Positions 8,701-58,400 of a stretch of DNA of 64,000 bases are shown here, piece after piece. The stretch spans positions 67,612,315 to 67,676,314 of the forward strand of contig OZ024869.1 in NCBI GenBank assembly GCA_964017185.1, in the 5' to 3' direction. The number at the start of each line of letters is the position of its first letter. Position 1 is the first letter of the stretch. This DNA is from Rugalucina vietnamica (Eukaryota; Mollusca; Bivalvia; Lucinida; Lucinidae). The position numbers were made by a program, and so were the translations under genes. The notes under the pieces were generated by a model. The model made no database searches, had not been told where the DNA came from, and saw only the letters and a program-made list of their open reading frames with translations.

Positions 8701-9225
8701 CCAGTAGCGTGGTCCTGAATAGCATTCGTTAGCATGGCAGAACAGTGTTGGCGCCATTACACCTCACACTTTGGCCCATTTGTCACCAGACAGTACGAAA
8801 ACATCAGGAAAACATGTCCATGCAGTGTATACTCCCTTAAACCCCACTTTTATATAGTAAAACTGGGGTTTACAGGGGTATACCTATTTTTCTTATTTTT
8901 GCTCCGAAACATAGATTGTGGGTACTCGTTAGAACCGCCTCGGCGAGGCGGTTCTAACGTGTACCCACAATCTATGTTTTGAGCAAAAATAAGAAAAATT
9001 TAACGAAATTTTCAATTTTTACAGGTGAGAAAATCTCTGTATATTGCATGGGCAAGTTTTCGTAATGTTAGATGTTTGCAAACTTCTTATGTTGAATAAA
9101 TTGCCATCGAAGCGGTAGCTGATCTGCAAGCCGGTATCGCGGTCCTGAATATCATTCGTTAGCATGGCAGAACAGTGTTGGCGCCATTTCACTTCACGCT
9201 TTGGCCCATTTGTCACCGGACATTA
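8655..9225. repeat. 140-bp direct duplication flanking a MITE
   Basis: The segment starting TTATGTTGAATAAATT, with CATCGAAGCGGTAGCTGATC and AGCATGGCAGAACAGTGTTG, occurs at 8655-8800 and again at 9085-9225 with about 10 differences. A family I MITE lies between them and a half MITE follows the second copy. Confidence 0.8.
8812..9067 (-). mobile_element. MITE family I, full copy
   Basis: Reads CATCAGGAAAACATGTCC at the left and GGGCAAGTTTTCGTAATG at the right, with the intact core palindrome, so it is inverted relative to the 27-291 copy. It is flanked by a direct duplication of about 140 bp (8655-8800 and 9085-9225). Confidence 0.85.
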
Positions 9226-26365: not shown

Positions 26366-26429
<64 letters not shown>

Positions 26430-27046
26430 GAAAGAGAGAGAGAGAGAGGTGGAGTTTCAGTGTCAGATGTCGGTTTGGAGAAATCAAAACTTGGCGAAGT
26501 ATGGGACTTATTCGTCATACAGTGACCATCCCATACATTACACCATAGAAAAGACCTATCGACAATCTCCAGCTGGCTATGTCGCTACCCATTCTGGTAC
26601 AATGTCAGAAGCAAATGCTGAAATTTGGAGCATGTCGAAAAACCGCATACTTTTTGAAATATCACCACGACAGCTGACACTGAATCAAAAGCACTTCGGA
26701 AGAAGAAGAAGAAGAAGAAGAAGAAGAAGAAGAAGAAGAAGAGAAATGATACCATAAAATAAAGAGTTTGAGATATTGTGAATAAAAATCAAGAAAACTT
26801 ATGAAACTTTAGAATTTCAATAAAGGATTTAACATCAGTAAAAAGCATTTACGACCTATACATGTACCGCATGCTAGAGGATTCACATATAGTGTCTTAT
26901 TACCATGCATCTCTGAATTATCATGGCGCTAAACATTGTATTTTCCTATCGAGAACAGAAACTATAGAAATACTATCATAATTTCGTGTCATTTGCGATG
27001 CAATGTTTCCAATGACAGGGTAAAATGGCTTCTATGGGAACACATT

Positions 27047-27090
<44 letters not shown>

Positions 27091-33000: not shown

Positions 33001-36000
33001 TATTGTTTGCTTGCAGGCACATTATGGCAGTTTGGTCAGTGCTTATCTAAGCTTAAGCAAGAGCTACTCACCGAGTAATAACTACATGCAACTCTTCCTC
33101 AGATCAGCAAATCTTCAGGTATGCCATTACGAAAACCTGCCCATGCAATAAATACATATTTTTGAGCTTAATTACAAATCGAAAATTTTCAACTGAATTT
33201 TTTTATGACGAGGCGGTTCTACGGGTACCCACAGTCTATGTTTTGGAGCATAAATAAGAAAAATAGATATACCCCTGCATATCCCGGTTTTGCTATGTAA
33301 AAATGGGGTTCAAGGGGGGTATACAACATTACACGGACATAAATTTAAAAAAAAAATTGAAAATTTTCAGCTGAATTTTTTTATATACTTTTCTTCTTTT
33401 TGCTCAAAACATAGATTGTGGGTACACGTTGAACCGCCTCGACGAGGCGGTTCTAACGAGTACCCACAACCTATGTTTTGGAGCAAAAATAAGAAAAATA
33501 GGTATACCTCTGCATATCTCAGTTTTGCTGTTTCAGTAAAAATGGGGTTCAAGGGACATGTTTTCGTGATAAAAACACAAAGATAACAAAATACGGCTAA
33601 ATATTTTATCATATAAAAGTAATTGGGGAAAACCATAACCTGGGAGTCAGTTATCATTAATTGAAATTATTCAGTTCGATTATTCCACCAAGTTTTATTG
33701 AACAACACCCGGCATACTCATATAGTGCTGATCAGCGCTGTATTTTGCAATGCAGAAAAGCGCCTCTTCATTGACACCGATACCTGTAAAACGTTGATTT
33801 GTCCATATATACTGAAAATAAAAAATCTTGCACCACCCTATTTTTTATTTTTTATTTTGGCCAAGTAGAACTATTTTTATTTCTAACTTTATTTTTGTTT
33901 AATTCCAATATCAAATCTTTGACTTTGCAGCAACTTCAATAATATGGATGATAATGCAAAATTTTTGGGACAAAAAGTGTAAAATTGCATTTTTTGAGAA
34001 AAAATGATTACCAATGAAAATTTTCAATGAGTTTTCATTGTACATGTGATCTGCATCATGGCAGTGACGGAAAAGCAAAAAAACATTTTGAATGTTAGGG
34101 AATTTGGAGTTTTTACAAAATTTTGAAGATTTGCATTTTCGGAAAATTAACTGGTGGTTTTGAAAATTTCCTTTAAACAGCAAAGAAAACAAATAAAGAT
34201 GCATTATTAGGTTATGGCAAGTAAGCACATACCCCATTTGATTGTTTTATAAACAGAAGTCATATCCGTTTGATGTACTTCCGGTCTGAATGCAAGAATT
34301 TTTATTTTTGATTTTACAGTTACCATGTTCATATCCTTTTTTTTTAATGGGTCATTGTATTGAGTGAGGATAAAACAACTTGTCCAAAACAATACATTGA
34401 TATGAACCAAGCAAATTGCTCCAGTAAAGCAGTTTAAAGTTAGTGCTTAATTTGGCGCGCTTTGCTTTTGTTTTAAAACTGTACCAAAATATAGCACCAT
34501 ATTTACGCTGCTTTGCTGGGACTGTTTGTTTGGTCTTTCAAAAATGATTTTGTGGGGCAAGTTGTTCAATCTCGAAACAGTACACTGGCACAAAAAATCC
34601 CCAAAATTACCAAATGATAGTTGTAAAATCAAAATTAAAAATTCCTGCATGCAAACCGGAAGTACAGCAAACGGATTATGACTTCCGTTTATGAAATTTG
34701 TCAAAAGTGTCATGTGGTCTATGTGCTTATAGCCTTATAATGCATTTTTGTTTGTTTTCTTTGCTGTTTAAAGGACATTTTCAAATCCACAAGTTAATTT
34801 TTCGAAAATGCGAATTTTCAAAATTTTGTAAAAACTCCAAATTCCTTAAATTCAAAATGTTTTATTGCTTTTTCGTTACTGCCATGACGCAGATCACATG
34901 TACAATGAAAACCCATTGAAATTTTTCATTTGTAATCAATTTTTCTCAAAAATTGCAATTTTACACGTTTTGCCCCAAAATGTTTGCATTATCATCCACA
35001 TTATTAAATTTACTGCAAAGTCAAAGATTTGATTTGGATAAAAATAATTCACTTATTATAATAATTATAAAAAAAAAATAACAAAAACATGGTGGTGCAA
35101 GATTTTTGATTTTCAGTATATAAGTTTGGTTGAGTTATGATTAAAAGGTCATTGTATGTGGAGTAAGACTAGAGGAACCAGAATAGATGCAATTAAATTA
35201 GTCCAAATACGGGTAAGAAAATGTGGGAAGGAAAATACATCGCAAAACATAACAAACCACCTTAAATGAATGATCTGATTCAAACATACTGTCCTTCATG
35301 TATTGCATGTACCATACAATTTTACAGGCTGGCCAAATCGCTAACTTCGACATCAAGGCTACAGAGACGTTTACGAGTGCGGTGTACCAGGTTTGTTGCT
35401 TTTCATTTCAAAGAAAATTTGAAGAAAACAAATGTGATATTTTGCTTATTTTTTGTTTAAAACAGTCATTGTGGTTACGGTACACGTTAGAACCGCCACT
35501 ACTAGGCGGTTCTAACGAGTACCCACAATCTATGTTTTGGAGCAAACATAAGAAAAAAGGTATACTCCTGCATACCCCAGTTTTGCAATATAAAAGTGGG
35601 GTTCAAGGGGGTAGGGGTATATATTTCACGGACATGTTTTCGTGATGGGTCTTTGAAAGAATTTCCTGATTTAAGGAACTTATTTATCATTTTTGAGCAT
35701 AAATTGTTTTCATTTGAAGGACTTTATGCGATAATTTCATTCATAACCAGAGTACTGGTTAATGCCAAGGAAGCGGTGGCTCCTTCCCGGCATGACTCAA
35801 ATAATGTTGACTGTGACGTTAAACCTCAAAACAAACAAATAAAATTTATCGTTGACGAAATTTCTCGATTTTCATATTCTCTGATCTTGATTCTTTGCAA
35901 ATATATAAATTTTGCTTACATGTACAATGGGTGTGTAGTTTCATAAAAATCTACGATCTCGTATATTTTATGAAGAAAAATATCTTATGAATTTTTCGAG

Positions 36001-39000
36001 AAGAATTATTATCATGAAGGACTCAAAACTTAATAATCTAATGCTGTCTTACTACTTTGTTTTGTCATTTTCAGGTTATGTCCCGGGGATCAGTTGTCAG
36101 TGCTGGTAAGATAACGGGGAAGTCCTTCGGTATCATGATAACTGACAAAATGGCACCTAATGCTAGGATAGTGGTCTACTATGTTAGAGCTAATGGAGAG
36201 ATTGTGACAGACAGCATCAGCTTCGACGTTGACGGTGCTTTCCTAAACAAGGTGAAGAAAATTTACAATTTGTTACCTTATATGTCTCGCAAATTTTCGA
36301 TAGCATTTTACCGTCATTGTGGTCAGAATGGAATTATCATATCGAAATCATCATATTTTTGGTCAACTTTTCCATTCTAATGTAACGTAAACTTAACGTA
36401 AACTTTATTTCACTCAGGTCATATACAATGACATGTGAGGTTCATACAAATATGATATACAACAACTAGCGGTTAGGACTATCATCAATACAGAAATAAT
36501 AGAAAATGACACATTTTTAAGTATTAATTGAGTAAATGTGTCCGCGATGGACGCTTCAAATTAAGTATCGCTAACTATCAAAATATTTTAAGACATTTGT
36601 GTGTCTATAGGACTTTTTATTCCATTCAAACCATTTCACATATTGCATATCTACAATGTACATGTATCTATAAATAAACATTTTGCAAACAGTTGAGCCG
36701 CCTCATGATAAAACCAACATTCTGCATATGCGAAAACAAAGACGCAGATCAGCTTCGCAGTAACTGCGAAGCTGATCAGCGCCTTTGCTTTCGCTACACG
36801 GATAGTAGACTTCCTCTTCTTTTTAAAACCGAAATTTCAAGCTTCCAGCCTGCCTCTGTGACTGTACAGCCTGATTTGTGTTGGACCTATTCGGAAACCA
36901 CATTGTTGATTTTCCCACGAGGCGGCTCATTTAAGTGAATATTTGATGGTCCTATTTAGTGTTCATGATTGTAATAAATCTAATTGATGCTTCCATTTTC
37001 TTATTTGTTATGATAATTTCTATCTCCCTAGGTATCAATCAACTTTGACAGACAGAAGGCGCAGCCCCATGACAGTGTTCACGTGACTGTTAAAGCTGAC
37101 CCCTCTTCCACGGTCAACTTACTTGCCGTCGACCAGAGCGTCCTCTTGCTGAAATCTGGAAACGATATTACCGCTTCAGAGGTACACACTATTTCATGCC
37201 TGTTTCAAATGATTAAAAATCATTTTATTGTTTTAATGGCTATTTTAAAGTGTTGACTTGATAACATAGATGCGATGTATCAATACCCGACACAAAATGC
37301 TTTTTGACGAAGAGAAAACCTTTTAGTAGCATGAATACTGCAAAAACGAATTGAAGCTCCAACACTCAACAAGCAGATGTTTTACCATTTGCCAGATGAC
37401 CCATTTGATGACAGCACCTGTAGTCCTGTAGTCTATAATGGATAATGTGGAAATTCTCCTTTCTCGTATTTTGATAATTATGAGCCCATTATAAACACCA
37501 GGTTGTGTCAGAGCTCAAATCCTATGATACCATTAGTCACGCATCTCATAATTTCTTTGGATTTGGAGGACCGATGATGGTCGGGCGGAGGAAGAGAATG
37601 GTATGGTGGCCATATCCGGTGTACTACGGTGGCTCTGATGCCCAGCAGATATTCGATGTGAGTTTTCGTGTAACAGTTGTGCTTTATAATGACATACAAG
37701 GCCCTGTTGCATAAACCTATATTAACTATGACAGTTCATAAAGTCCCAGTTAACCTAATGGCAGCTTTATCCTTGTTGCATAAATACCTATGTAAATCGC
37801 TATTGGCGTCTACTGAAAGCTTGAACGCTGTCATTAGCTCTGGAGGTACTTTAAGATTGTTTTATGCAGCAGAACATTCATGTCGTCTTAACTAAATAGT
37901 TATTGAATTTTATGTCGGGTTAAGGTTTAATGACAGCTTAAGTTTATGCACCAGGCACTGAATGATAGTTAAGGGATACATTTTGTTGTTTCATGTAAGC
38001 TATGTTAATGTCATTTAGAATCGTCTTGGCGACATGATTCTGATGCTCACCCGCAACATTTGTTTTCATGAAGAGATAATAAACTATCTTTTCAGTTACA
38101 TCTGTTATCAATATCTTTTCAGTTACATCTGTTATCAAATATACTCCTCTTTTTTCTGGTTGTTTATCATTTCAAGTGATGTGGCAAAAAGTGAATACAT
38201 GATGAAAGAAAAGGCTCATGTCCTTTGTAATTGAGATATGTGTTGCTGGTTGACTGCGAGTTAAAGTTTAGAGGTTTCATAGATAGCAATGTGTTCATAT
38301 CTTTATCATACTAGTAAAACATTTCATGTGTTGACAGTATTGTGTCTTCTAATAGTGTTTGACTCCAATGTTTGCTAATTACAGAATGCCGGTGTGAAAG
38401 TGATGACAGATGCAACAGTTTACCATCATCCACAGCCACATTATTGTAAGTTATGGTTTATACGCTGCAATACTGAATCGAGGAGCGCGATGTCCTAGTG
38501 GTTAGCGAGTCGGACTCCGGATCGAGAGATCGCGAGTTTGTAAACCACTGCCTCCGTATTGTGTCCTTGAGCAAGACACACAAACTGCCTATTATCCTGA
38601 TATATGCCCAGGAAACGACGGCCCTTTTTCAACATGACAGAAAATATAATGACTGGGATGTTTAGCTTCTACCAAACCAAAAGCTCATGCATGCATATCA
38701 CTACAAGAATAATTAAAATGCATTAACCATTAAGTCATAAAGCGCTTTCAAGGCGAATTGTTTACATGTACAATGCTCTGGCGTTCGTACATGTACTTCG
38801 TCTGCCCGTTCACATGATACAGACAGCCGCTACAAAATACATGTGAAATGCTGATGAAATAAAAATATATGGGGAATTATAATTTCAAAGTCCTGTTCAG
38901 CGCTAGTGGTTCAGGGATTGGACTTGGTGGTAACCCTTTTAGCACTGACGGTGGATCTGGAAACTCATCATTCGGAAACAGCCAGTCTCTGAAAGAAGTG

Positions 39001-40395
39001 GATAGAGTTCGATCTGTGTTCCCTGAGACCTGGTTATGGTCGAAGGCAACAACAGGGTAATACTCTGGGATCACGTACTCTTCCTTCTCACGTGCAAAAC
39101 GCTTGCTGTTGGCCGTTTGCCTTTGCCATCATTTAATATCCCCAACATTATTGAAGAACACTAAATAGTCAATCGTGTTGCTTATCTTGCTTGGCAGGAC
39201 CAAAGATCACTAGCTTCATTAGACCTCCAAATACCGTTTAGTTACATTTTTAAAATCAACGTTGATACTTTCTTAAAACTAACAACACGTGACTGTTTAA
39301 AGTTTTGATATATTTTGGTATTTAAAAAAATAATGTACAATTGTTCATGTATATTGTTGACGTTTCCTTTAATGTGATAAAACATAAAAATGTGAAATAT
39401 TCTAAAAAATGTAAAAAAAAAAATCACAGTGAATGGAAAGAGCAACCACAGATAAAACAGTCAGATAGAAACACGAAAAAGGACATGTTCATTTATTGGC
39501 ATTAGAATATTCAACAAAACAATGGTGTTCAAAACTACAATCAATGCATGGATATGGTACAATTATATTATTGTATTAGAAAATACGTTTTACATAAACT
39601 AACAGATTTCAATAAATTCTTGGACGGCGCTCTGGCTGGAGGAGCAGTAATGAAAGGCGATGGTGGTCACGGGGCAGTTGCAACTGGGATGAGTGCGAGT
39701 AGCTCAAGTCAGGGCTTAAAGCAAGTTGAGCGAACCAGATCAGTGTTTCCTGAAACCTGGCTTTGGTTAAACTCGACCACTGGGTAATAACTAAAAGTCG
39801 TATAAAAACAGCTCAGCGCTTAGCCAGCTTTTAAAGTGAACAGCTAGGCTTTAGCCACCCTCTCGACACAGGTTATGGGGAAGCATAAACACTGTTCATC
39901 TGACTAGCTTAATAATATATTATATAGTTATAATATATTTACATTTTTCTAAAACCTCTTTAGATGAACCATTAGATGTTCACTGTGTTCATACATCCAT
40001 GAACAACATCGTGTCACGCGACGTCACACTTGACGTCAAAAAGCAATGTTCTCGCCAATCTGATTGGACGTTGTAAACGTCGACGCCGTTCCGCTGTTTG
40101 TATTAATACTGTGTATAAATTATCTATCTGCTCGTAAATATGATCGCCTTGATGAATGAATATGAATATAAGAAATGAGTTTAAGTTTTCAGATGTTCAT
40201 GGAGCTATGAACGGCAGTGGGTCGCTAGCAAAGCTTACATGAACTCCTTCGGGGTTTATTCACTTTGCACGCGACTCACTGCGGTTCATAGCTCCAGAAA
40301 AATGAAATTCATTTCTTAAATAAATTATATAATTCTTTCTTCATCACTATGTAGCTGTGGTAGCTGGTAGGTAGGCATGGCAACAACAACAACAA

Positions 40396-40448
<53 letters not shown>

Positions 40449-43400
40449 AAACATCGTTCTTACTACAAGTGGAACAAGAAAGACTTTCAATGAGGGAGAG
40501 GAGACAAACTTAAAATATCTTACATGAATTTTATATATTACCCAATGCCAGCCGGTCTTACATGAATTTTATAGATTACCCAATGCCAGCCGGTCTTACA
40601 TGAATTTTATAGATTACCCAATGCCAGCCGGTGGTCCTATTCGAGGTCCAGGTGGGGCCATGCCTGATGGGGCGATGATTAATTCAGCTTCAGGCTCAGG
40701 ACTTCATACGAACACGCATCTAAAACAAGTTGATCGTGTGCGCAATATATTCCCTGAAACATGGCTATGGAATTCATATTCAGCCGGGTTTGTCAGATAA
40801 TATTTCAGCAATTAATGCGATTGATGTTGCTTGAATTCGCCTGCTTGCTAGAAGTTAATGAAATACAGCGTATGTTTTCGAAATAGCTAACTGTGTTTGA
40901 ACATGTTTTCCCAGTAAATACTAAGCTAGAATGTTGTTAAGCACACAAGTCGTGAAATGATAAAACACCGAGGTACTGTAATGTATAGAAATGCTCTTCA
41001 AGCAGTTATGATTATAAGTGATCTACAAAGAAACCTTAAAATTCCTACACAAATCTAAATATTCATGAAATTTGCGATAAAAGGACCCGCACCAGCGGTC
41101 TTCAGTGGAGAATCAAGAGCTGTCAAGAAATGGATGTGATGCACCTGTGCAAGTGGTTCTCTAAAGACCCTCCGAGATAGAGTTTGAAACGTTTTAAGGA
41201 GGTCTATGCCTAAAATGAGAAAAGTCCCTAAAAGCCTACAATCGAGGGGTCAATTTTTAAAACATATAATTTAAGCAAAAGTTTAAAGTGTTTTATTGGG
41301 TATATATGTAAATTGTGTGACAAAGGGTTTGGCAGCGTTCCTAAATGCCAAAAGGAGGAGATAACTCTTGGTTTTTGTACCTACCAAAATATTTACAAGT
41401 TCTTACCCTGCTAATGTTCATGGAGCAAAAATATAGTTTTCTATGTATTTGACAGCAATTGTTTTTGCTATAAACCAAAGAAAAAATGATGTCGCCAATA
41501 TTAACGAGTTTTGGTATTGTTGTTTTTGTGCATGCGCATCATCGAAACACGTTTAAGGTCATTCTATTTCCGATAATAAAGAAGAAAATGGGGACCATTA
41601 ATATTTTTAGTTTGAAAGTATGCCCCCTCCCCCAGACCCAGCTTCACACTAACATATATTGTGTAAATATACTTATCATTATAAGGTGTCTCCAGAAAAA
41701 GGATTTTGCCGTTTCGAGGAGGCCTAAATCTCAAATAATGGGTTTTGCTCGAACATACATAGTGATAATGATCGATACTTGAGAGGTTAGGCGCTTGTAA
41801 TCCTCCCAGTAATTTTATATTGCTGATCTTTCCAAGGCGATACTTCTGTAGTGGCTCTTATTTATGTTTTGGCGTTGATTTTTTGTGCCTTTGTTCCAAA
41901 TGTATATTTTGATATTGCAGTTAAGTTTTGGTAACTGAGTGGCCGCATATTGGGAAAATAGCTGCTCACTTGGCTTATGATTCGTTTTCTTAGTACGAGT
42001 ACTTGATTGTTAATTAAATTTTTCCCACCTCGGTTTTTGGAGTAGGAATTTCTTTCTGAATGCGCCATTTCCAAACCATTGCCTACCTTTACATTCAAAT
42101 ATCATGACTGACTCTTTATAGATTACCCTATAATGGCACCGGGTGGTCCCATTCGAGGTCAGGGCGGGCCTATGCCTGGAGGGGCAGTGATAGACCCAGC
42201 CGCTGGTTCTGGCCTCAGTGCGAATACACATCTAAAACAAGTCGATCGTGTGCGCAATATTTTCCCCGAAACATGGCTATGGAATTCCTATTCAGCAGGG
42301 TTTGTTAAAGTATTGCAATTTATGTTGCTTGCAACCTGTGTTACTTTTGCCTTCAGCACTGCTTGCTTTGCTAGACGAAACAAGTGACCGTCAAAAACAT
42401 TCACCGTCATTCGCATACCAAAATATTCTTGTTCTAAAATCCTGATTACAAAAGTTAAAATCAATTTTTGAATCCCTATCGGCTAAAACAATATTACATG
42501 TGACATAAAATTATATACAAATATGTATGGGAATGGAATCCTTAAGACTTTTGTCGTTAAATTTCAGGTGAATATAAATATGGACGGAGAGACTGCTCAT
42601 TGTACACCATTTTAGCGTACTTGTCTATTTTTTTTGGGATTGTTTTTCGTTCCTCGTTTCCCAAACCAGCACTATTAGTATATAGTTTAGCATTTGGCTA
42701 CCGTTCCAAGGCAAGCCTGGCTAATTTGCTAGGCAGTTGACGTCGTGTTTTTTTCGGGAATACCCGAAGTCTCAACCGAGGTTTGCTCAACCTTTCCTGA
42801 GTAAATAACCAGACTAACAATGTAGGTCGATTTTGTTTTTAGTTTAATTCCGTTCCTAGATCCGCTTTAACTAGTACTATGGACAGCATCGGGATCTAGC
42901 TTTAAACACATTCTAAATGTTCTATTCTGAAACATGGTGATAACCACACTAACTTCGTTAAGGAATGTCAACGGTAAATAACGCTCCTTTGAATGTAAAT
43001 ATAGCTCATGTACCAAGTGCAGCCCAAGAGGAGAAATATTTGAAACGTTGAACAGCACATTTTAAATATTTTATTCTTTTTGGCGCCTGTTATTGTTCTT
43101 TTAGTCGAACTGGAAGGCCAAATCAGAAGACAGACCATTCACATCTTTTATTTTAGATTATCCTACAAACGTCGACTTTCTAGGGCCCCAACCAGCGATC
43201 GCAGGGGCCGGAGCAGGATTCGGGATGGCAACTGGTACAGGGGGATCTGTTGTGCCTGCTCCAAGTGCCACCCTGAAGACCGTAGATCGTGTTCGAAACA
43301 TTTTCCCCGAAACCTGGCTTTGGAACAATGCTTCTGTTGGGTTTGTTTTGCAATTTACTCTCAGATATTGTAGATGCAATTAGTGCTTAGGCCAAGCTTT

Positions 43401-46400
43401 TAGCTTTCGTTATCTACTTTTTCTATGCTATTTTGGATTGGTATACTGCCTTGTAGAAAATTAGAAGTTGAGTAGATGACTACTAATCTGCTCGGTGTTA
43501 CTACATGCTATCTTCAGTTGTAAGACGTGCCCAAGATTTAATAAAATGATTGCTGACTCGGTATAAAGCGATCAATCAACTCATCCTCATTTACTTCCTG
43601 TGAAAGCTGAAATTGATATAAAGTGTATCCGCTCATGCATTAGCTGTCATGACACCAAGAAGTTCAAGCGGTTCAGGGCTTCAAACTGAGATGTGATTCC
43701 CGAAACGTGGCTTTGGAATTATATACATATCTTGGGTTCGTAAGGGGCTGAAAATCTAATAACCTACTCCAAGATACGCGTTTCGTTATACATGTACAAA
43801 TCGCGTTATATATACATGTACTGTAGCCCGTTTTGAAAAAGTGGAACTATGCTGGACCCACCATTTCCTTGACTGATTAAATGTTTCAATGATCCAATGG
43901 TTCTGTTATTCCGATGTATATATGCCGCTCAACAGTTAAAAATGAATGGACAAAAATTGACCAAATCTAGTTTGAGCTTGTTACACGTCATTTTTTAAAA
44001 TTTATTATTGATTGATGTCAGTATTTCGTTTCCACCGTGTATCTTGAGAACAAATTGACTGAATTCGACCAAATATTTTACTGGTATGCACATAAACATT
44101 GATAACGACCCTTGATGTTCAAGTCAGAATTATCGTTTCCGCTTAATATCTTGAGAACGATGCTCAACTCGACTAAATTTTGAATACATATCAACATTAA
44201 TAATGCCTAGCTTGATAGTGTTAGCCATTAAAAAATGCTCATCAACAATGACAAGTTCGTAAAGTAAATTTCATGGATTGTCAATATTTTGCATTGTCAT
44301 CAGTGGTGGTATCAGTAAAATTAAATCAGATGTTGCTGGGATTTATACACCAATAGATAAAAAAAAAAGACAAACCATGATTTGTGGATTACAATGACCG
44401 TTTTGAATATAATGAAGATCCTTGTATGGTAGGCACCCTGCATGCCCACTGAATGCAACATATTTTTTTACGGGACAGATTGATCAAACATCACCTGACA
44501 CCGGATGGAGTGCGGTGATGATTGAAAGTTGGATCGATTGGGCATCAACCTTCAGCAAAACGAAATCGATTTGACCTGAACCTACATCGAGGCAATCATG
44601 AAATCTTTGCGGTAGGTTGTTGCCCAAGTGATCGGGCTTCCTGTCTTTTCATTTTGTCATTCGTCGTGTGATGGTGCATCAATCAGCGCTGTAAGAAGTT
44701 TATTGTATCATGAGTATACACAGTGGTGAGGATATATGTAGACAGAAACTGTTCGTTAGTCGTGACCTGTAATTCTTTTCGGTTGCATGGCCCTTATAGA
44801 AAGTCAGTGCTCCTTTTGTGTGTCATTTTAGTGTATCCAATGCCGATGATTGAAGAACTCGGAGGAGGAGGGGGAGGGTTTGCGATGGCTGGCCTGGCAC
44901 CAGGAGGAGGTGTAGCACCTCCATCTGGTTCAAGTTCAAGTGGTTCAACGCTTAAAACTGTAGATCGCGTTCGAAATGTGTTTCCCGAAACATGGCTTTG
45001 GAGTAATGCTTCTGTTGGGTTTGTAATATGCCCCAATTATATAGGCTAGATATGCTATATGCTAGCAATAGCTAGACAGCCGCTTAAGTAGAAATCCTTG
45101 CTTAATTTTGCAGGTGAGCGTATAAGGTTTGGTGACGGAACTCGTACTCTGCTTTGTTTCATGAATGATGTACGACAATGAATTTCCCCAAGGACGCGAT
45201 ATGTCATCATCAACTTGCCCTGTGACAATCAACCCTGGGGCATTATTCTAACAAGTTTTAAATACCATATTATATTCTGAGATCAGTATGGCGTTCGTAT
45301 TTGTAGATTACCCTATGATTGACGCTGCCTTTGGAGCTGGAGCGGGAGGTCATGCATTACCCGGCATGGCACCAGGAGGAGGTGTAGCACCTGCAACTGG
45401 TTCAAGTTCAAGTAGTTCAGCCCTTAAATCTGTTGATCGTGTTCGAAATGTGTTTCCCGAAACATGGCTTTGGAGTAATGCTTCTGTTGGGTTTGTAAAT
45501 TGCTCCAAATGTATAATCTAGATAAGCTAGCATTAGACAACCGCTTTAGTTTCACAAAATCATTTGCTAAATTAGTGCTTAAATAAAACGCACATAGTAC
45601 CTTGATGACCAACAGAAAAAACGGCGTTTTTAACACAGCGTAAAGATAAATTCATAGAGATCGTTGGGTCTGTGTCAGATCAATCAAGCACTGCAATGTT
45701 TCCATGCACTCATTGTAATTCTAATAAGTCTGGTTTACCACATGTTGCCATGATCTGATTATTATAAGTCAACATCGGAAAATCGGAGCGTGTATCAAAC
45801 CATCGAATAACCGGGACAATTTCGAACTTGCAATTTCGAATTTATTTGGCGGTTTATTCTTGCATTTATACTTTATTTGGCATTACTGCAACTGGGGTTG
45901 CACTGTGTGACGATCCTAAAAGTATCCTCGTATGTACATGCATACATCAACCATAGTCACTGCGCCGCTGAGATTATATTTTACTTTCGGTCCTTAGAAA
46001 ATTCAGAGTATTAAATATCAATGCGTTAAGAGCCATCATAGGGAATATAACTTAATACCCTCCGTACGTCGATAAATGGGTTGTACTATTTTTCAAAATT
46101 GACCGCATTGTTTATCGTCGCCTCACCGAGACCGACATTGTCACGGTTTACATGTAACTGTATAGTTAACGGATCACGGAACCAATATGTCCTTTGCCAC
46201 GACATCATAGTTTTAGTTTCCGCCCCGGCATGTCTGAAGAATTGTTGACTGGGACGTGAAGCCTCAAAACAAAACAAACAAACATAATTTTAGTTAAGTT
46301 CGCATAACTGAGTAGCCGCCCATTGGGAAATAGCTGCTCTTTCGGCTAACGATATGTTTTCTAAGTATAAGTACCTGATTGTTAATTTAGTTTTTTCCCA

Positions 46401-49400
46401 ACTCGGTTTTTGGAGTGTGAATTTCTTTCTGATTGTGCCTTTTCCTGATCATTGCCTAACTTGTACCCATCATTCAATGCATGTCTTCCGCAGTGGTTAT
46501 CCTGTTTGCTGTTTGAAACGTGTTGATTCGAATGTTTGATCGTATCTGAATCTATGTTATATCAGTATCACCATTCATTTGTCTCACTTTGGTTTGGTAG
46601 AATAAGATGTCCACTTGACTGCAAGATAAAACGAAGTCGGTACAGTTCCACCTACAGACAATGGTTTTCTACTGCCAGTCTAGAAGATCAATTGGAGTAG
46701 TCAATCTGACCCCCCCCCCCCCAAACCGCCTTTACCTAAAGCCAACATATAGTTTAATGGTATTTGAGACAATGCATCAGAAAACCAACACTGCATAATT
46801 ATGCGAAACCAAAGGCGCAGATCAACTTCGCCGTAACTGTGAATCAGATCAGCGTCGTTGTGTTCGCTACACGGATAGCACAGCTCGGTTTGTGTCAGGC
46901 CTGGTCGGAAGCACAAATAGTGTTTTTTTTCATGCAAAGGCTAAAATTTTGTAGATTACCCTTTTATGATGCGGCCAATGATTGATGCAGCCTTCGGAGG
47001 TGGCGCGGGAGGTCATGCATTGACTAGCATGGCACCCGGAGGTGGAGTTCCTCCCTCAAGTTTGAGTGGTTCAGCGCTTAAAACTGTTGATCGTGTTCGA
47101 AATGTGTTTCCCGAAACATGGCTTTGGAGTAATACTTCTGTTGGGTTCGTAACATGCTGATAGAATACCAAGCGTGTTTTAGTTTACATAGCAATTTTGC
47201 GCTTGAAGTTACGTGTACATGTGCAACTGTGTTGCTTTAGTGCCTTAGGTGGTGGTGTACTGCATGTAGAGCTAGATTTGGCTGCCGCATCAAAAGACCA
47301 ATTTTAATGGTCTCATGGACAATTGGTGAAAACTAAATGAGATACCATCATATCACAGAATGTGATAAGGTTACTTACTCACTATCTCGCTTTACTTAAT
47401 TACATGTACATATTACATGCAACAAACAAACCTTGATACAAAACCAGTGGGAATCACAGATACCATGGCTGTGGTTATTTCCAAAACTTATTCATCTTTA
47501 CCGAGGCCGATGTTTGTTCTCCTGTGACTGTTGAACAATCACCCTTCCAGAATGAATTGTCTTGTATTTCATTGTTGAATAAATGGTGTTTAGTATTGTA
47601 CATTCTACATGTATGTCTTGCTTAGAAGATCTCAATATAATGTTGGCTGTGGTTTTGTTCTTGTTGTTGGTGTATTCTCAAGAGATAAGTCTTTATCATG
47701 ACACATCTCATACGCTGTTTCGCCCAACAAATTGATCAGTGTCGGCTGTGTTATATATATATAAACCGTTACCTTGGCAACATCACGGCTTTTTCTTTGA
47801 TCACGGTCCAATAGCCCTCAGCGCTGTTAATTCTATCGGCGGACTATCTGGCGCAGCACTGCCTCAGCTTATCATCCCTACTTCTGTCCCACAAACACCA
47901 CATCAGTCATAAGAGGAACCAGAACGAGTCAGAACAGTGTTTCCAGAAACTTGGCTTTGGAGCAATGCAGTAGTTGGGTACACTTTATTTGAATTCATGT
48001 CCCCGAGTCCGTGTCTAAAATGTATCATCATGAAAACATATCCGTGTATTGAATACCCCATTAAACCCCACTTTTATATAGTGAAACTGGGGTATGCAGG
48101 GGTATACCTATTTTTCTTATTTTTGCTCCAAAACATAGATTGTGGGTACTCGTTAGAACAGCCTCGCCGAGGCGGTTCTAACGTGTACCCACAATATATG
48201 TTTTGAGCAAAAATAAGAAAAAAATCAAAAGTTTTGTGATGACATTTTCATTTTTTACAACTAAAAAAATCTCTGTATATTGCATGGGCAAGTTTTCGTA
48301 ATGATTTGTCTTTACCTCTGGTAGCGGTGCCATTCTTGAGATGAGTTTGCTCCTGGTGGTTTGAATTTCGCTAACATAGCTTACGTCTTGGTCGTTGTCG
48401 GTGCATGATGAAGTTAGGCACAGTGACAAAATGCGGCGCCCATTACCAGTGACCTCGTCCCATTTGGTTTTGAAAAAAGCTTTTCCATCTGGCTTGTAAA
48501 AATCAGTAATATATTGACAGCCTGTTTTGTGTATCAACCATCGTATATCATTGCGTATATATATATACGTCTACAACGATGGACCAACCATGTTTAATAT
48601 CGCCTATGTGTAAACATATGCCACATCGAATTGGTTACAACAAAATTTTGTGACTTTTTTGTTTTCGAGAACAGGGTGGCCAGACTTCGTACCCGGACAA
48701 ACACCCCCACCACTAGCGGGCCTTGTTTCTGGAATTCCACCTTCGCAAATGTCTCAAACCGGCAAAGAACCTTCACGTATACGATCATTCTTCCCGGAGA
48801 CGTGGCTTTGGATGAATTCTAGTACTAGGTACATGAATATGATCATAGTATAAATCAGACGTTTGCGCGCTTGTAAACTATAAATGCTTCTCGCTCCTAT
48901 CTACCGTCTGCAAAGGGACTTGGTATATAATATTAGATGCTTTGGGCTGGTGGTTCTTTCTTTAACAATTAAGGGTGCTATTTGTTTCCGTTTCCGAGGA
49001 ATCGTACGGATTTGTTTTCTATGATACATGTATTTCTAACTAGGGGACAATTATTTGAAAAAATTGTGCAAAAGATGCAGCGAATATGCAGTCCAGTCAG
49101 TGATTTAAACTTTTTTCTCTGAGTATATACATGTAACAATAATAACACAAAGTCTAGAGGGTTAAATGACCGAACTGGTTAATCAATACATGTAGCTTCA
49201 TGTCTTTTTCTAAACAAGGATGAAGGGATCCGCATATCTTGAAGTGCATCTCTATTTTGAAACATAGGCTTCAAATTAAAGCGGAGGCTTATTCGGAAAT
49301 TTGAACTGATGAAACAGCAAGTCCATTTGTCTAGCTCTAGAAATGGGTCTGATGCCGCTACCAATAAGGGAAGTTTGAAGCTTTTTGAAGGGGTCAGATG

Positions 49401-52400
49401 TGTGTTATTCTGATATTCTGCTATTATTGCTATAAGATAGCCACCTAGTATTCTTTATAGCAATTATTGTACTCACGCTACAGTAGTACAGCAATGTTAA
49501 ATTTATCTTTTTTTTTTTGTTTCTTTTTTTGCTAGCTTCTTGTGCCACCTACCCCACAAAATGCTTAAACATCTGTCATTTTCTATTATTTTTGTATTGA
49601 TGATAGTCCTAACCGCTAGTTGTTGTATAACATATTTGTATGAACCTCACATGTCATTGTATATGACCTGAGTGAAAATAAAGTTTATGTTATGTTATGT
49701 TATAAAGCAAGCATTGTATGCATGTTACGATAATACTTTCATAGTAGTTCATAATGGCATTCATGTACGAACGTAATCTCGGCACAATTCGAATTCGAAT
49801 TGCATGTTACAGATTATCCTATTATGACACCCGGTGGTCCAGTTCGAGGTCAGGGAGGCCATGACTGGAGAAGCGGTGATCTATCCAGCTGCTGATTCTT
49901 GACTGCATCTTAAACAATTTGGTCGTTTGCGAAGCTGATCAGCGCCTTTGTTTTCGCTATACGGATAGCGCACTCCCTCTACTTCCTGAATACGAAATTT
50001 CGACCGTCTTACCACTTCTAGGACTGCATAGCTCAGTATGTGTCAGACCTGGTCGGAAACGCAAATTGTTGGGTTTTCTCATCCTAATGCTCATCTGTAG
50101 ATTAATCTTTTATGATTGATGCTGTCTTCGGTGGTGGAGAGAGAGGTTATGCATTAGCTGGCATGTCAACAGGAGGTGGAGTTCCTCCCTCAAGTACAAG
50201 TGGTTCAGCTCTTAAAACTGTTGCTCATGTTCGAAATGTGTTTTCCGAAACATGACTTTAGAGTTACACTTTTGTTGGTTTCGTAACTTGCTGAAAATGC
50301 AAAGCGTACTTTGGTTTACATTGCAATTTTGCCCTTGGAGTTACAGGTGCAGCTGTGTTGCTTGAGTGCATTAGGTGGAAGTGTACTGCATGTAGCTTGT
50401 GTTGGGCTACCGCATCAAAAGATCAGTTTAAAGGTTCTCGTGGACGATTGGTGAAAACTAAATGAGTTATTATCATATCACAGAGAACTTTCTCATTAAC
50501 TACTGACATAATATACATGCAGCAAACAAATTCTGATACAAAACCAGTGGGAATCACAGAGAATTTCAGACCATGATTGCTGTTATGGATATTTCCAAAA
50601 CTTATTCATTTATACCGAGGCTGTCTACTGTGGACTGTTGAACCTTCCCCCTTCCAGGTTGAATTGTCTTGTATTTCATTATTGAATAAATGTTGTTTAG
50701 TAATGTACATTGTTTGTCTTGTTAAGAAGGTCGTGGTTGTGTCTTTGTTCTTGTTATTGGTGTATTCTCAAGTGACAAGTCTTTATCATGACTCAATTCA
50801 TACGCTGTTTGGCCCAACAAATTGATCAGTGTCGGTTGTGTTACGTATGCACTTTTATGTTTTATTCAGCTCCGCTACCATGGCAACATCACGGCTTTTT
50901 CTTTGGTCACGGTCCGATTGCAATCAACGCTGCCCACTCTGTCGGCGGACTATCAGGCGCAGTACTGCCTCAACCTATACCTACTTCTGTCCCACAAACC
51001 ACACAACAGTCATTGGAGGAACCAGAACGTGTTAGAACAGTGTTTCCAGAAACTTGGCTTTGGAGCAATTCAGTAGTGGGGTACACTTTTAATTATTTTA
51101 ATTCACGTCGCCGGGTTAAAGTCAAAGATTTGTATTTGTTCTTTATCCCTGGAAGCGGTACTGTCCTTAATGTGTGTTTGTTACTTGTGGTTTGGATATT
51201 GATGTCATATAGCTTGGTTATTGTTGTTGCATGAAGTGGTTGTTTTGCGTATCAGTCAGCCCAAAGTTTTACTCCTGGTAGACGGATTGTCAACATGTGA
51301 CGTCAACATCACTACACTCTTCCCCATTGGTCTAACAAGCTTAACCACCAAATATTCAGACAAAGCGAATAGCAAAATGCATGTCGACATACAGTTACAC
51401 TTATCAACCATCATGTAACCACGCAGAGCTAGTCAAAGATCAGGGCCCAAAAGATTGTATGTGTCGCTGATTAGCGATTGCTATTTGTGTACGGCTACAA
51501 CAAATGGGTTACAATAGAGTTTTTGTGATTCTTTTCGTTTTCGCTAACAGGGTGGTTTACTGCCATGCCAGCTCTTGTACCCGGGCAAACACCAACAGCC
51601 CAACCGGGCCTTGTAACTGGAATTCCGCCTGCGCAAATGTCTCAAAACGGCAAAGAACCTTCGCGTGTGCGATCATTCTTCCCGGAGACGTGGCTTTGGA
51701 TGAATTCTACCTCTGGGTATATGATACGTGTTTGACGATAAAATTACGCACTTTTTAACCATACACATTGGAAATGCTTGCCGCTTCCATTTCCTGTCTG
51801 CTTATGCTGTAAAGAAAGGTCACACAAAATATCGTATTTGAAGTCGTAGGGCTGTTTGTGGAAGCTGAGCAAACAATTGAGCCGTCGCATGGGAAAACCA
51901 ACAATCTGCATAGGCGAAAACAAAGGCGTAGATCAGCTTCGCGGTAACTGAGCCTTTGTTTTCGCTACACAGATAGTACAATTCCTCTAATTTCTAAATC
52001 CAAAATTTCCAGCCTCTGACCGTCTTCTGTGACTGTACGGTCCGGTTTATGTCGGACCTGGTCGGAACACCAAATTGTTTGTTTTCTCACTCACAGGCTC
52101 ATTTGTTTTGGGAGTCTGTGTAGAATCTGATTTATTATGCTAAATGTAAGCACATTTTTCTGCCTCCCCCAGACCCTCCGTTTGAAAGATTTGAATTGAT
52201 GAAGCCTCAAGCTCATCTGTCCGGCTCGGGGACGGTATCTAGTGCCGCTACCAACCAGGGAAGTTTGAAGAAGGTCGGAAGGGTCAGAAGTGTGTTTCCC
52301 GAAACTTGGTTATGGTCAAGTTACAGTTCCGGGTATATTTCACATAGCAACTATCATTTGTTATTCTTGCTATTAGACATGTTAGATAGGCATTCACTAA

Positions 52401-55400
52401 TGATAGTAGTTTATTTAGTAAGTATTGTACTAATGCTAGAACTCTCAGGCTATTCCATTTGTTATTCGTGAGATAGTTTATTCTTGCTCCAATAAACTTC
52501 AGACCAAAATCGTTATTAGAGAACACTAAAGGTAAAATGGACGCCCGAAAGTTTGTTTATGAAACTCTGTTTTTCAGACTGATGCTGTTATATATGTGTG
52601 AAGCGATTCACGGTATTGGTTTCATAGGCGATAATGTCATTATGAAAATTTGCCCATGCAATAAGCAGAGAATTTTTAGCTTTAAGAATTGAACAATTTC
52701 AACTGAAAAAATTGCTATATCTCTTATTTTTGCTCAAAACATTGATTGTGGGTACACGTTAGAACCGCCTTGCCGAGGCGGTTCTAACGAGTACCCACGA
52801 TCTATGTTTTGGAGCAAAAATAATAAAAATAGGTATACCTCTCCATACCCCAATTTTACTGTATAAAAGTGGGGTTTAAGGGGGTATTTATTGCACGGAC
52901 ATGTTTTCCTGATGACATCTCGCATTCGGCAAGGGGTCGAATTTTACATTGGTAGCAATGATTACATGTATTACATGTAATTCCAGCTTAAGACAACGAC
53001 AACGACGTCTTCACAGAAAACGTTCTTTTTGTCACGCAATCTGACATCATTTTTCACTTGTTTGAAACATTACTTTAGGGCATCATCATGGTGGCTTTTT
53101 GGGTGGAGGTGGGTGGGAACTAGTGGACGCGCTCGGTGGCGCTGGTGGTGTGCAACCCGTTCCAGTACCACAAACACCAAAACAGCCGCTTAAGGAAGCT
53201 TCCCGAGTAAGATCTGTATTTCCGGAAACGTGGCTCTGGAGTAATGCAACAATAGGGTACATGATAGATTTATAGTCATTAAGACCACTTTTGCAACACG
53301 AATTACAACTTTGTGGGATTAGAAGGGAATTATCATTGTGTGGGAATAATTTGTATAATGGCGCATCCCCACCTTGGTTTCACAATTTGTCTTCTTTCGG
53401 GTTTGCTTTTGGTGGCAGGCACCCATGCTTACATGTATGCGTTAATTATATTGAACTGTTTTGCATTTCCACGTATACTGTAATACGAGTGCATGTTTTT
53501 GCCAATGTTTCAACTACTCAATCGTTTCTTATTACACCCAACCCACTTTAAAATGCTATCAAACAATAACAGAATAGATGATGCGGAAGGCAGACAATTT
53601 AGCCTAATTAATAACAGCATATACATGTATCATTGAGTATTCGTAGTGAGTTAGCGATTATAACTGAGATAGTTTAACATGGCGCCAAAACAATGTATCT
53701 ACATCAATTCGGGGTTGCTTTGATAGTATGTGCCCATAATTTATGTATTATTAACTTATATAATCTGATGCAATCTTACGCAAAGTTGGGCGGTTTTAAC
53801 ATTTACCCACAATCTATGTTTTGGCCAAAATATAAAAAAGTTACAATTTTTTACATTGAAATTTTAATTTTTATAGCCGCAAAAATGTCTGTATATTACA
53901 TGGGTGTGTTTTTTCATAAAATGGATACCTACACGACTACCTTTTCATATTTTCTACCGCTGCTTTTGTATAGTTTACCTTCTGTATCGACCTTGCTGGT
54001 TACTAGCTAAAATGGCGAAACGCTTTACTTCGCTTAAATGTTTATGCAGCTTTGGCTAGAAAATCATTGATTTATAGATATTTATTTTTCACTTTATACC
54101 TCTTTTTTACATTAAGTGTAAGTTTTAATATAAAGTAATTTTAAATGAATTTACTAAAGCTGGTGTTACTTTGAATACAACTTTCTTTTTAACAGTAAAA
54201 TTAAACACTGTGCTACATTTACCATTATTTTTTGTCTTAACTTCAAAATTTTGTTACATCTATTTTAATCTACTTTACTCCTGATATCATCCTGGAGATA
54301 AAGAAAAAGATTTCCATGAAAGAACTTTTCTTTCATGAATCCAGTACAGTATTTTACGACGTATAATAATTTGATTTGAAGCTTTGAAGGAAGATTTATT
54401 CACTTGTTTATAAACATGTAGGGGTAAATGGTAAAGGAATATACGTAGAAGGATAAAAATGCCTAATCGTTGTTGACCATTTTATCACAAATTTCTTGAG
54501 CATCTTACATTTCCTTATAGCGCTGACGGGACAGTAAATATAACAACAACAGTTCCTGATACCATTACATCATGGATCGCCAGTGCCTTTGCAGTAAACA
54601 GCCAGACAGGACTAGGAGTGGCTCCAACAACCGCCAAGGTATGAAACGTCACATTACGAGATTTTTCAGCTGTAAAGTCATCTAAAACTGAAAATTTCAT
54701 CAGAATTTGATATAATTATTGTTTAATATTTTGCTCAGAACAGGGATTTTGGGTACACCCCAGTTTTACTTTAAGATGAAAGAAATATTATAACAACGCA
54801 CAATTATCAACACAAGTCTGGTCCATCGATTTACACAATAATGATTTCTGTTTGCTTAAGAATTAAATAATGTTAATAGCCATACTTTATTCGTGTTGAG
54901 TTTGTTAATCTTTCAGATTGAGGCCTTCAGACCGTTCTTCGTCAGCCTGAACCTTCCTTACTCCGTTGTCAGAGGGGAGCAAGTTGCACTGCAGGCCAAC
55001 GTCTTCAACTACATGTCCCATGACATGAGTGTAAGTTATATATCCGGTGTCCTGTATACGAAGTCGGTCCTGTTTAATTTCTAGGTCCGGTGTATACCTT
55101 TTCTTATTATTATTTACATGTATTTGTGAACAGAGAAGCACAAAGTACTAACCGTTGATTTTGAGCCTGTAAAAGCAAAATATATGAGCCGCCGCATGGG
55201 AAAACAAACAATCAGCATAGGCAAAAATAAAGGCGCAGTAATTGCGAAGCTGATCAGCGCATTTGTTTTTGCTACACGGATAGTACAATTCCTCTACTTT
55301 CTAAATCCAAAATTTCCAGCCTCTAACCATCTTCTGTGACTGTACAGGCTGGTTTGTGTCAGACCTAGTCGGAACCCAAATTGTTGGTTTTCTCACGCAC

Positions 55401-58400
55401 AAACTCGTATATTGTTTGTTAAAGACACATTTTGGGTTTCATATTAAACACCTTAATGATTATGGGCAGATAACAAATACTAGTCAGGGTGGTTATCCAT
55501 TTCCTCACAGGCATAACGAAAACTTGCCCATGCAATAAACACAGATTTTTGAGCTTTAAAGCTTGAAATTTTTCAGCTTAAAAAATTTAATATTTTTTTT
55601 TATTTGTGCTCAAAACACATATTGTGGGTACACGTTACAACCGCCCAGCTGGTTCTAACGAGTACTCACGATCTATGTTTTGGAGGAAAAGTAAGAAAAA
55701 TAGGTAAATCCCTGCGAACCGCAGTTTTACCATATAAAATGTGACGGGATAGCCTCCTTTGGAAAATACGTTGGTGCAACGTATTAACGGCATATTGAGT
55801 GCTTGTAATATGCGAATTTCAAACAAGAAACTTTGTGAATCGAGTAATTGTTGAGTACATAGCGCAGTAAACAACCCTTGGTAGATAAACATGCTTTTCC
55901 ACCGACGGGGTTTGCTGTGGCTTTGCTCGGCTGTTCATTACACAGGTTTATGGACGTACGTCCCATTTAAATTCGCATTATCGTCGACTTATAATGTATA
56001 TTTTCAGTAGGAAACGCGCCTGTTTATTGTGCAGTGTAACGAGTAGATAAGAATCAAGATCAATTTAAAAGATAACGGATCTTATCTTGAGAGTTTATAT
56101 TAACTTCTCATAAAATGAGCCACATCATGAGAAAACCGGATTTTCGCATATGCGAAAACAAAGGCGCAGATCAGCTGTGCAGTAACAGCACAGCTTATCA
56201 CGCCTTTGTTTTCGCTACACGGATAGTGCAATTCCTCTTCTTCCGTTGACTATATTGCCTGTATATGCGTATACTTTAGCGGCCCAGAAAACTGTTATCA
56301 AGCTCCCGATGCTGATCCTTTATACTGAAGACAATAGTTCCATGTCTTATGAAGAAATACATGTTCAGATATTTACATATTCTGTCATCAGTTGGTAGAA
56401 ATTGAAGCTTCAGTGGGGTTGGGGGTCTGAATTTCATGAATACTAAAAGGTAGAAAATTTGTATTTTTCTTGCATGGTGGCGATTGTTGTTACAAATGTT
56501 TGTATTTTAGAGCATTCAGTCGACAGAAACATGCAATAATCATGTAAAAATGCACCGAAAATGTTTAAATATCTGCAGTATGAAATATTGTTAGGAAAAC
56601 TTTTAGGAGGTACCTGTATAGCATTTCTGCCTATGCAATTTTAGATTACCATATATACTTTATAAATAACAGTTGCAAAAAGCGCCGAGTTTCCAGTCTT
56701 GAATCAGTAAAAACTGTTTAAGGAGTTATAAGTATGTTCTAACAACAAATTGTTTGATATTCATCATATACAATTGAATTATTGTGGCCAAATATGTATG
56801 ATAAATTATACCTAGTTTGCCATGGCCAATGTAGCATAACAGACATACACCATATACACCGGCTACACTAACACGGCTACCTATCTCCATAATTCAACAA
56901 TGAAATGAATCTTCAAAAAATCAAGAATCAAAGTCACCAAAAATAGATAAGCTGGACTGCACTTACCATATGCCAGCCAAACCCATTTATTGAGCCAAAA
57001 CTAGGAACAAGTATAATCAGATCTGAAAACCTGCCCTCACAGTATGGAAATAATAAAACAGAGTTACAATTTTTTTATGGATTAGAGGCCGTGCGAAAAC
57101 AAGGGAATATTTTGTACAGTGTGTCTCCAAAATTTTGTAACACAAAATGATGGGCACCATTAATGCCCGTGGCCCAAATGATGAAAGTTGATTCTGCAGC
57201 ATCCAGTTTCAAGTTAATAACATTTCTAATAATGCATATTATGACCAAGTTAAACTATTTCATTTTCCATTACTTTATATATGTTAGCTTTGCCTGAATG
57301 AGTAGCTATAACCTTTTGTCATATTTGGGCTCTGGTTTTTGGGTTCTAGAGTATCGTTCCCCCCAAAGAACCAACACGCCACTTTCATATATTGTGCAAT
57401 ACATGGCAACACATATATATGCAAAAGCTTTTGTTGGTTCTCAGGGGGGAACGATACTCTATAAAACATTTTCATAATTACTATATATTTCATACAAATA
57501 TTGACTGTTTTAGCCCCAAATTCAGACCCTGTGGCACGAAACATGGAAAACAAATTCTGTTATCCAATAGTGCATAATTCAGGGAAGTTAACCTGTGCAT
57601 AAGAAGACAGATGGCTTGCTTTTTGTTTTTCCAAAAAACATAGGCAATTGTAAATAGAAATGGTCAACGCTTCTTTCAAGCTTCTAGCCATCCTCTGTGG
57701 CTGTACAGACTGGTTTGTGTCGGACCTTGTCGGAAACCCTGAAGACCGGTTTTCTCGCGTCGCGGCTAAAATAATTTAAAGGTCGAAGTTTATAATTTAT
57801 TGCCTACCACAGAAGCTTTATTAGATTCTTTATCATGAATAAATTTAATAAGATTTTTAGCTCACCTGAGCCGAAGGCTCACAAGGTGAGCTTATAGTAT
57901 AGTAGTCGAGCCGGCGTCCGTGCGTCGTCCGTCGTCGTCAACATTTTCAAACGACTTCTTCTCTGAAGCTGCCCGGCCGAATCTTTTCATATTTTACATA
58001 TAGCATCTACAGATAGGGGGAACGAATATTTGTGTTTTTTATTTCGATCGGATAAGAACTCTGGTTGCTATGGCAACTTATGCTTCCCATAGACTTATAA
58101 TGGAGAAAAGTGAAAATTGCCTATTTTTGCTGTCTTGTTTGAGATATTTGAATTTTGTTTTTGCAGAAATGTTTATTGAGTAGTCCTCTACGTTTCATGT
58201 GACTTTTGTCCTAATCCTACATTTTGATTGGTTGCAGGGGCCCCATATAGGGCAAAATTTTGAAAAACATTCAAAAATCTTCTTCTCAGAAACTGTCAAG
58301 GGGATAAGCCTATACTTTGTATACATGTTCCTGACAGTGGCCTCTACATAATTTGTGTTTTTTATTCCAGGCGGATAAGAACTTTGGTTGCTATGGCAAC

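Follow-up and report, generated by a model that had tools for sequence, protein, structure and literature searches.

A stretch of DNA of 64,000 nucleotides from the lucinid bivalve Rugalucina vietnamica (GenBank assembly GCA_964017185.1, contig OZ024869.1, forward-strand positions 67,612,315 to 67,676,314), in the following called the window and numbered from its first letter, contains within a gene for a CD109-like thioester protein (TEP) a tandem array of 13 homologous exons, the cassettes C1 to C13. To judge from the sequence, these cassettes are most probably mutually exclusive exons for the bait segment of a TEP that groups with CfTEP of the scallop Chlamys (Azumapecten) farreri, and the core of the interpretation given earlier in a first-pass annotation of the same DNA is very likely right. 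If the array is used as predicted, this bivalve can equip a single complement-like protein with any of 13 trigger segments, and the reading frame acts as a lock that favors one of them per mRNA.

The 13 intact homologous exons that the annotation had placed between two constant exons were borne out, each having an AG acceptor, a GT donor and an open frame, and the extent given for the array, 38891..53256, is exact, running from the start of C1 to the end of C13. The sequence R-x-R-x-x-FPETWLW was found, as claimed, at the end of all 13 cassettes. Moreover, a six-frame scan of the window for the FPETWLW core, two mismatches being allowed, yielded 15 matches, all on the plus strand and all within the array, 13 of them exact and located in the intact exons and two located in broken copies at 43696 and 47940. 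In phase-consistent models, all on the plus strand, the cassettes are C1 (38891..39056, Gly/Ser-rich, with a pyrimidine-poor acceptor), C2 (39606..39783, Gly/Ala-rich), C3 (40613..40787), C4 (42122..42299, the pair of C3 in the self-comparison of the window), C5 (43157..43340), C6 (44832..45018), C7 (45307..45490), C8 (46955..47144), C9 (48675..48828, Pro-rich, with VPGQ), C10 (50870..51080, His/Phe-rich), C11 (51551..51716, the pair of C9 in the self-comparison), C12 (52173..52332, with two Lys/Arg and two Asp/Glu in its arm) and C13 (53079..53256, His/Gly-rich). Cassette lengths are 154-211 bases and the spliced models, of 959-978 residues, are open in 13 of 13. Every cassette has one or more phase-consistent AG acceptors and a GT donor, and since most cassettes offer several in-phase acceptors, of which one was picked by position and homology, the exact 5' borders are predictions. 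The acceptor of C3 lies within a 38-bp unit that is present three times at 40518-40632, triplicating this acceptor together with the first 20 bases of the cassette, and by arithmetic only the last of the three acceptors keeps the frame.

As modeled, the plus strand of the window is most of one CD109-like TEP gene. The model comprises 22 constant exons, 16 upstream and 6 downstream of the array, which are bounded by AG and GT and agree in phase. The upstream exons (17813..38445, plus strand, splice-consistent model) carry the Pfam domains MG2, MG3, MG4 and A2M_BRD, and the exon preceding the array (38385..38445, phase-consistent borders) ends in phase 1. The exon following the array (54521..54638, plus strand) completes with its first base the codon split after the cassette and was aligned with the CD109/A2M segment that comes after FPETWIW. 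Five further plus-strand exons (54917..62862) provide the domains A2M and TED_complement, the last one carrying the thioester site PTGCGEQ. All these Pfam matches are above the cut-off, and the GCGEQ site lies in an 11-residue segment of exon 62686-62862 that was aligned to the same site of CD109. The 3' border of this last modeled exon is uncertain, and the gene exits the window after its first thioester-domain exon; a 5' signal-peptide exon was not located in the window, no dedicated search for it having been made. Among solved structures the best matches of the constant part are human CD109 (E 3e-161) and then alpha-2-macroglobulin (A2M; E 1e-92). Pfam domains and CD109/A2M matches together support the earlier assignment to a single TEP gene of the A2M family. 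Of 1367 relatives matched at E<=0.001, 120 were listed, and the closest among these are CD109 antigen-like proteins of Mercenaria and Ruditapes with 71% identity over the 969-residue model built with cassette C7. In a FastTree gene tree of 887 columns and 37 hand-chosen sequences (36 of the 120 homologues and the window), the window and CfTEP fall into one bivalve group (support 0.96), with the window as sister to Dreissena, Mya, Mactra, Mercenaria and Ruditapes (support 0.97). A tandem array with units of about 50-58 bases occupies 18910-20860, between the constant exons 17813-17973 and 21815-21840.

The alignment with human CD109 leaves out model residues 588-687, among them the arm, that is, the variable part of the cassette, and resumes at residue 688 with a 17-residue segment that is aligned with the CD109 stretch ending in FPETWIW. 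The alignment with A2M passes through the A2M bait to the same FPETWIW motif. The placement of the array at the A2M bait position is thereby supported, with the arm in the unaligned stretch and the shared end aligned.

How could the choice of one cassette per transcript be secured? All 13 cassette lengths are 1 mod 3, so that one cassette keeps the frame. Splicing without any cassette, or with either of the two pairs that were run, C3+C4 and C12+C13, leads to an early stop in the model, and from the lengths the same frame shift is implied for the other pairs; by arithmetic, four or seven cassettes would restore the frame. As predicted from these lengths, the reading frame favors exactly one cassette per mRNA. 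The introns within and beside the array measure 288-2041 bases, and crowding of splice sites is therefore unlikely to be the cause of exclusion. Comparing the 13 cassettes with 20 of the 22 constant exons (the first and the last being left out), the donors of the cassettes match the U1 consensus less well, with means of 5.15/9 versus 6.40/9 (Mann-Whitney p=9e-5). Pyrimidine tracts do not differ between cassettes and constant exons (p=0.84); the pyrimidine-poor acceptors are those of C1 (9/20) and C2 (10/20), the cassette mean being 12.4. Probably the spliceosome selects one cassette for each transcript, perhaps assisted by the weak cassette donors, and nonsense-mediated decay would clear mis-spliced mRNAs. 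Of the one-of-13 choice of isoforms proposed in the first-pass annotation, the frame layout stands and fits exclusive use; splicing of one cassette per transcript is what we infer from it.

Invariance of the core despite synonymous changes, together with the intact phases, suggests that the cassettes are under selection. All seven core residues are invariant in 13 of 13 cassettes, and five of the seven codons vary synonymously. For tail and core together (22 codons), nonsynonymous divergence (dN) is below synonymous divergence (dS) in all 36 usable pairs, with medians of 0.33 and 1.56. Seven pairs were tested for the arms: five close pairs gave dN of 0.08-0.22 and dS of 0.38-1.32, C10/C13 gave 0.68 and 1.34, and C5/C7 was saturated; no sign of positive selection was seen in these seven pairs, though the arms are short. 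In addition, neutral evolution was simulated starting from C7, with 5000 copies at each of the assumed distances 0.1, 0.2, 0.3 and 0.5, and frame, core and splice dinucleotides were kept in 8%, 0.5%, 0.08% and 0% of the copies, respectively.

Database records of relatives vary in the bait in a comparable manner. In 23 of the 27 records listed for Haliotis rufescens, 16 distinct baits are flanked by 650 residues before with 0-1 differences and 662 residues after with 0-9 differences; several of these baits differ by one or two residues, leaving about nine types by eye. Nine of 13 H. cracherodii records contain nine baits, and five of six A. farreri TEP records five baits, in both cases with zero flank differences. 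The records left out were more distant paralogues, one longer form and one short fragment. Compared with 83 distinct reference arms, the arms of C3, C5, C6, C7, C10 and C11 score above shuffles with p=0.003, which is the floor of 300 shuffles, followed by C13 (0.007), C9 (0.010), C4 (0.017) and C8 (0.030). These p values are soft because the arms are of low complexity.

Several observations weigh against mutually exclusive use of a selected array. For 42 of the 78 pairs dN/dS was unusable because dS was zero or saturated. In the close pair C7/C8, tail and core have a dN of 0.041 at a dS of 0. The distances of the neutral simulation are assumed, and the simulation is weak at 0.1. A search for a docking-selector element, in which 80 candidate intron windows were compared with 191 control windows, gave no candidate that beat the best controls: the medians for upstream and downstream flanks were -24.1 and -24.5 for the best candidates and -25.3 and -26.2 for the best controls. 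On average the first intron lies about 2 kcal/mol below the controls, in a comparison made without matching G+C. Most of the Haliotis records bear the name of predicted isoforms and so do not independently prove that transcripts exist. The arms of C1, C2 and C12 have no relative above shuffles among the 83 reference arms (p 0.58, 0.11 and 0.30). Furthermore, the Biomphalaria glabrata record P0084, named TEP4, is missing the whole cassette, stays in frame and is elsewhere 98-99% identical to the cassette-bearing P0078; it may be a cassette-free form in the snail or an assembly error.

What would the exchange of the arm bring about? A TEP of this kind would expose the chosen arm and be cut either within it or at the shared R-x-R that directly follows; the cut would trigger a conformational change and exposure of the thioester, and swapping the arm could alter which proteases trigger the molecule, or how readily they do so. 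The different protease specificity among isoforms that had been proposed is in this sense something we infer. The arms contain only 0-2 Lys/Arg and 0-2 Asp/Glu each, most sites for trypsin-like enzymes being found in the shared tail, and the specificity for trypsin-like enzymes may therefore differ little. Differences between the variants would then concern chiefly other classes of protease, or a property besides the choice of protease. Alternatively, the array could be used exclusively while cleavage always occurs at shared basic sites, the arm being a variable released peptide or a ligand-binding segment, a possibility that we regard as tentative and doubt overall. The arms are poor in Lys/Arg, while the R-x-R tail is common to all 13 cassettes. 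Upstream of the cassettes, in the constant exon 37502-37657, lies R-R-K-R (37586..37597, plus strand), which we take to be a furin-like site, and RX[KR]R is present between the same anchors in 72 of the 93 homologues, among the 120 listed, that have both anchors. CfTEP is also said, in PMC5989330, to show an apparent cleavage similar to that of the protein C3. Against the released-peptide idea, cysteine is absent from all 13 arms, unlike in an anaphylatoxin. The position is that of the A2M bait, which speaks against cleavage at shared sites, and elastase-, chymotrypsin- or metalloprotease-like enzymes could still read arms of Gly, Ala, Pro, Met or Phe. With the array read as mutually exclusive bait exons, the locus supplies a set of isoforms for testing whether bait variety is protease variety.

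When the 13 cassettes were compared with the rest of the window by blastn and tblastn, five damaged cassette copies, absent from the earlier listing, came to light on the plus strand: a truncated remnant with a stop (43642..43723), a twin of C10 with one in-frame stop (47766..47977), a twin of C12 without the core (49291..49406, also seen in the self-comparison), a truncated twin of C4 (49813..49899) and a twin of C8 with a damaged core and two stops (50111..50278). A 20-base repeat ahead of C3 was also matched in this search. The self-comparison, which took pieces of at least 70 bases, revealed a tandem duplicated block on the plus strand (46878..52296), in which 46878-48008 matches 50026-51116 (77% identity), 48620-48836 with C9 matches 51494-51724 with C11 (79%) and 49299-49406 matches 52189-52296 in C12 (74%). 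In our own reading of these matches, a block of four cassettes (C8, C10, C9/C11 and C12 types) would have been doubled and then have undergone complementary losses, the first copy probably keeping C8 and C9 and losing the other two, the second keeping C10, C11 and C12 and losing the C8 type. Three of the five broken copies fit this reading; the C4 twin at 49813 and the remnant at 43642 are outside it. Its broken copies and its duplicated block make the locus an illustration of growth and shrinkage in such repertoires. Near-identical haplotype or assembly duplicates were also considered as the source of the array and rejected because the copies are too diverged, even the best intact pair, C6/C7, being only 85.8% identical.

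The damaged copies also raise the question whether the array is partly dead, with few cassettes in use and the rest being relics heading toward the state of the five broken ones. We consider this quite unlikely. Five of 18 copies are broken, the cassette donors are weak, C1, C2 and C12 have no recognized relatives, and of the eight variants predicted for the snail BgCD109 just four are found in transcripts according to PMC7016707. However, phase, splice dinucleotides, frame and core are kept in 13 of 13 cassettes, and under neutrality these features would be lost at the larger of the simulated distances. It is highly improbable that each cassette serves as a first or last exon of its own, under a separate promoter or with a separate poly(A) site. 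Nothing was found in favor of this, promoters and poly(A) sites not having been analyzed, and every cassette starts and ends within split codons and is bordered by an acceptor as well as a donor.

Within the reading as mutually exclusive bait exons, the arms could form a slowly evolving library, in which the VPGQ, His-Gly-Phe and Cys-x-x-Cys (CxxC) types predate the split of bivalves from gastropods and chitons, and in which species keep their sets of types while single copies are gained by duplication of blocks and dropped by complementary losses. We hold such a library to be rather unlikely. Among the 83 distinct arms, the His-Gly-Phe motif occurs in six versus 0.37 expected from shuffles, CxxC in 11 versus 0.56 expected, mostly in Haliotis, and VPGQ once versus 0.09 expected, all three motifs having been picked after looking at the arms. 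In a tree of 52 cassettes (13 from the window and 39 hand-chosen), the VPGQ type (C9, C11 and P0016) forms a clade with a support of 0.80, and the His-Gly-Phe and CxxC types were not recovered as clades. Searches of the protein collection with the cassette region of C10 or C9 alone gave no match at E<=1 (78 and 45 candidates). Both this tree and the empty searches weaken the case for ancient arm types. If true, the library would mean selection for a defined bait panel matched to fixed proteases of enemies or host, and not for mere diversity.

Elsewhere in the window, which has 37.1% G+C and zero N, several overlapping open frames at 3727-6227, four pieces of which have no Pfam match, presumably resemble the reverse transcriptase of a retroelement. 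A 32-base palindrome with at most three mismatches occurs at ten places (148-180, 8927-8959, 18105-18137, 29510-29542, 30124-30156, 33427-33458, 35485-35517, 48151-48183, 52757-52789 and 60126-60158) with 19 matches on both strands and none in 100 shuffles. An element of about 234 bases with inverted ends, similar to a miniature inverted-repeat transposable element, is present at 36695-36928 and 63010-63243, with nine end matches including single ends at 2156, 18257, 51879, 55186 and 61185. Scans of the window with Rfam at gathering thresholds and for tRNAs gave no match.

With human CD109 and A2M the gene shares FPETWIW after the bait and the best solved-structure matches of its constant part; we know of no alternative bait-exon array in the human CD109 and A2M genes. 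In the mutually exclusive clusters of Dscam, tandem duplicated alternative exons are chosen singly. The array resembles them in consisting of such exons and differs in belonging to another protein family and in that no docking-selector RNA signal stood out among the 80 windows compared with 191 controls.

Closer counterparts are found among TEPs. CfTEP belongs to the same bivalve gene group and has alternative bait exons, and the five of its database forms that were compared, B-F, vary in the bait, the 650 residues before it and the 662 after it being identical. As cited in PMC7016707, it has six mutually exclusive exons and seven isoforms, whereas 13 intact and five broken copies are present here; the transcripts which that paper describes for CfTEP and BgTEP2 favor exclusive use in the window too. 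The same source describes for BgTEP2 of Biomphalaria glabrata 12 tandem mutually exclusive exons that cover 30 kb and share a conserved C-terminal part. As in the window, where 13 intact copies extend over 14.4 kb, these are homologous exons for the bait. It also reports that eight forms of BgCD109 are predicted and four were recovered, and that BgA2M has three, and it cites six variants for shrimp A2M-2 and five isoforms for Drosophila Tep2, which likewise has an alternative bait exon and is set apart by description through its fewer variants (PMC7016707). Passages of PMC2685406 and PMC12939704 add nothing on bait exons. No treatment of cassette types common to several molluscs, or of broken cassettes, was recognized in the literature searched, the searches not being aimed exactly there and most subscription journals lying outside them. 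The statement of the first-pass annotation that known cases have fewer alternatives holds only just, as the 12 exons of BgTEP2 were found in transcripts, and 13 intact cassettes are one above this largest reported count met in the sources at hand (PMC7016707). Arrangements of this sort have already been described in scallops, snails and flies, and the array adds to them a large and well-preserved case, not a new kind.

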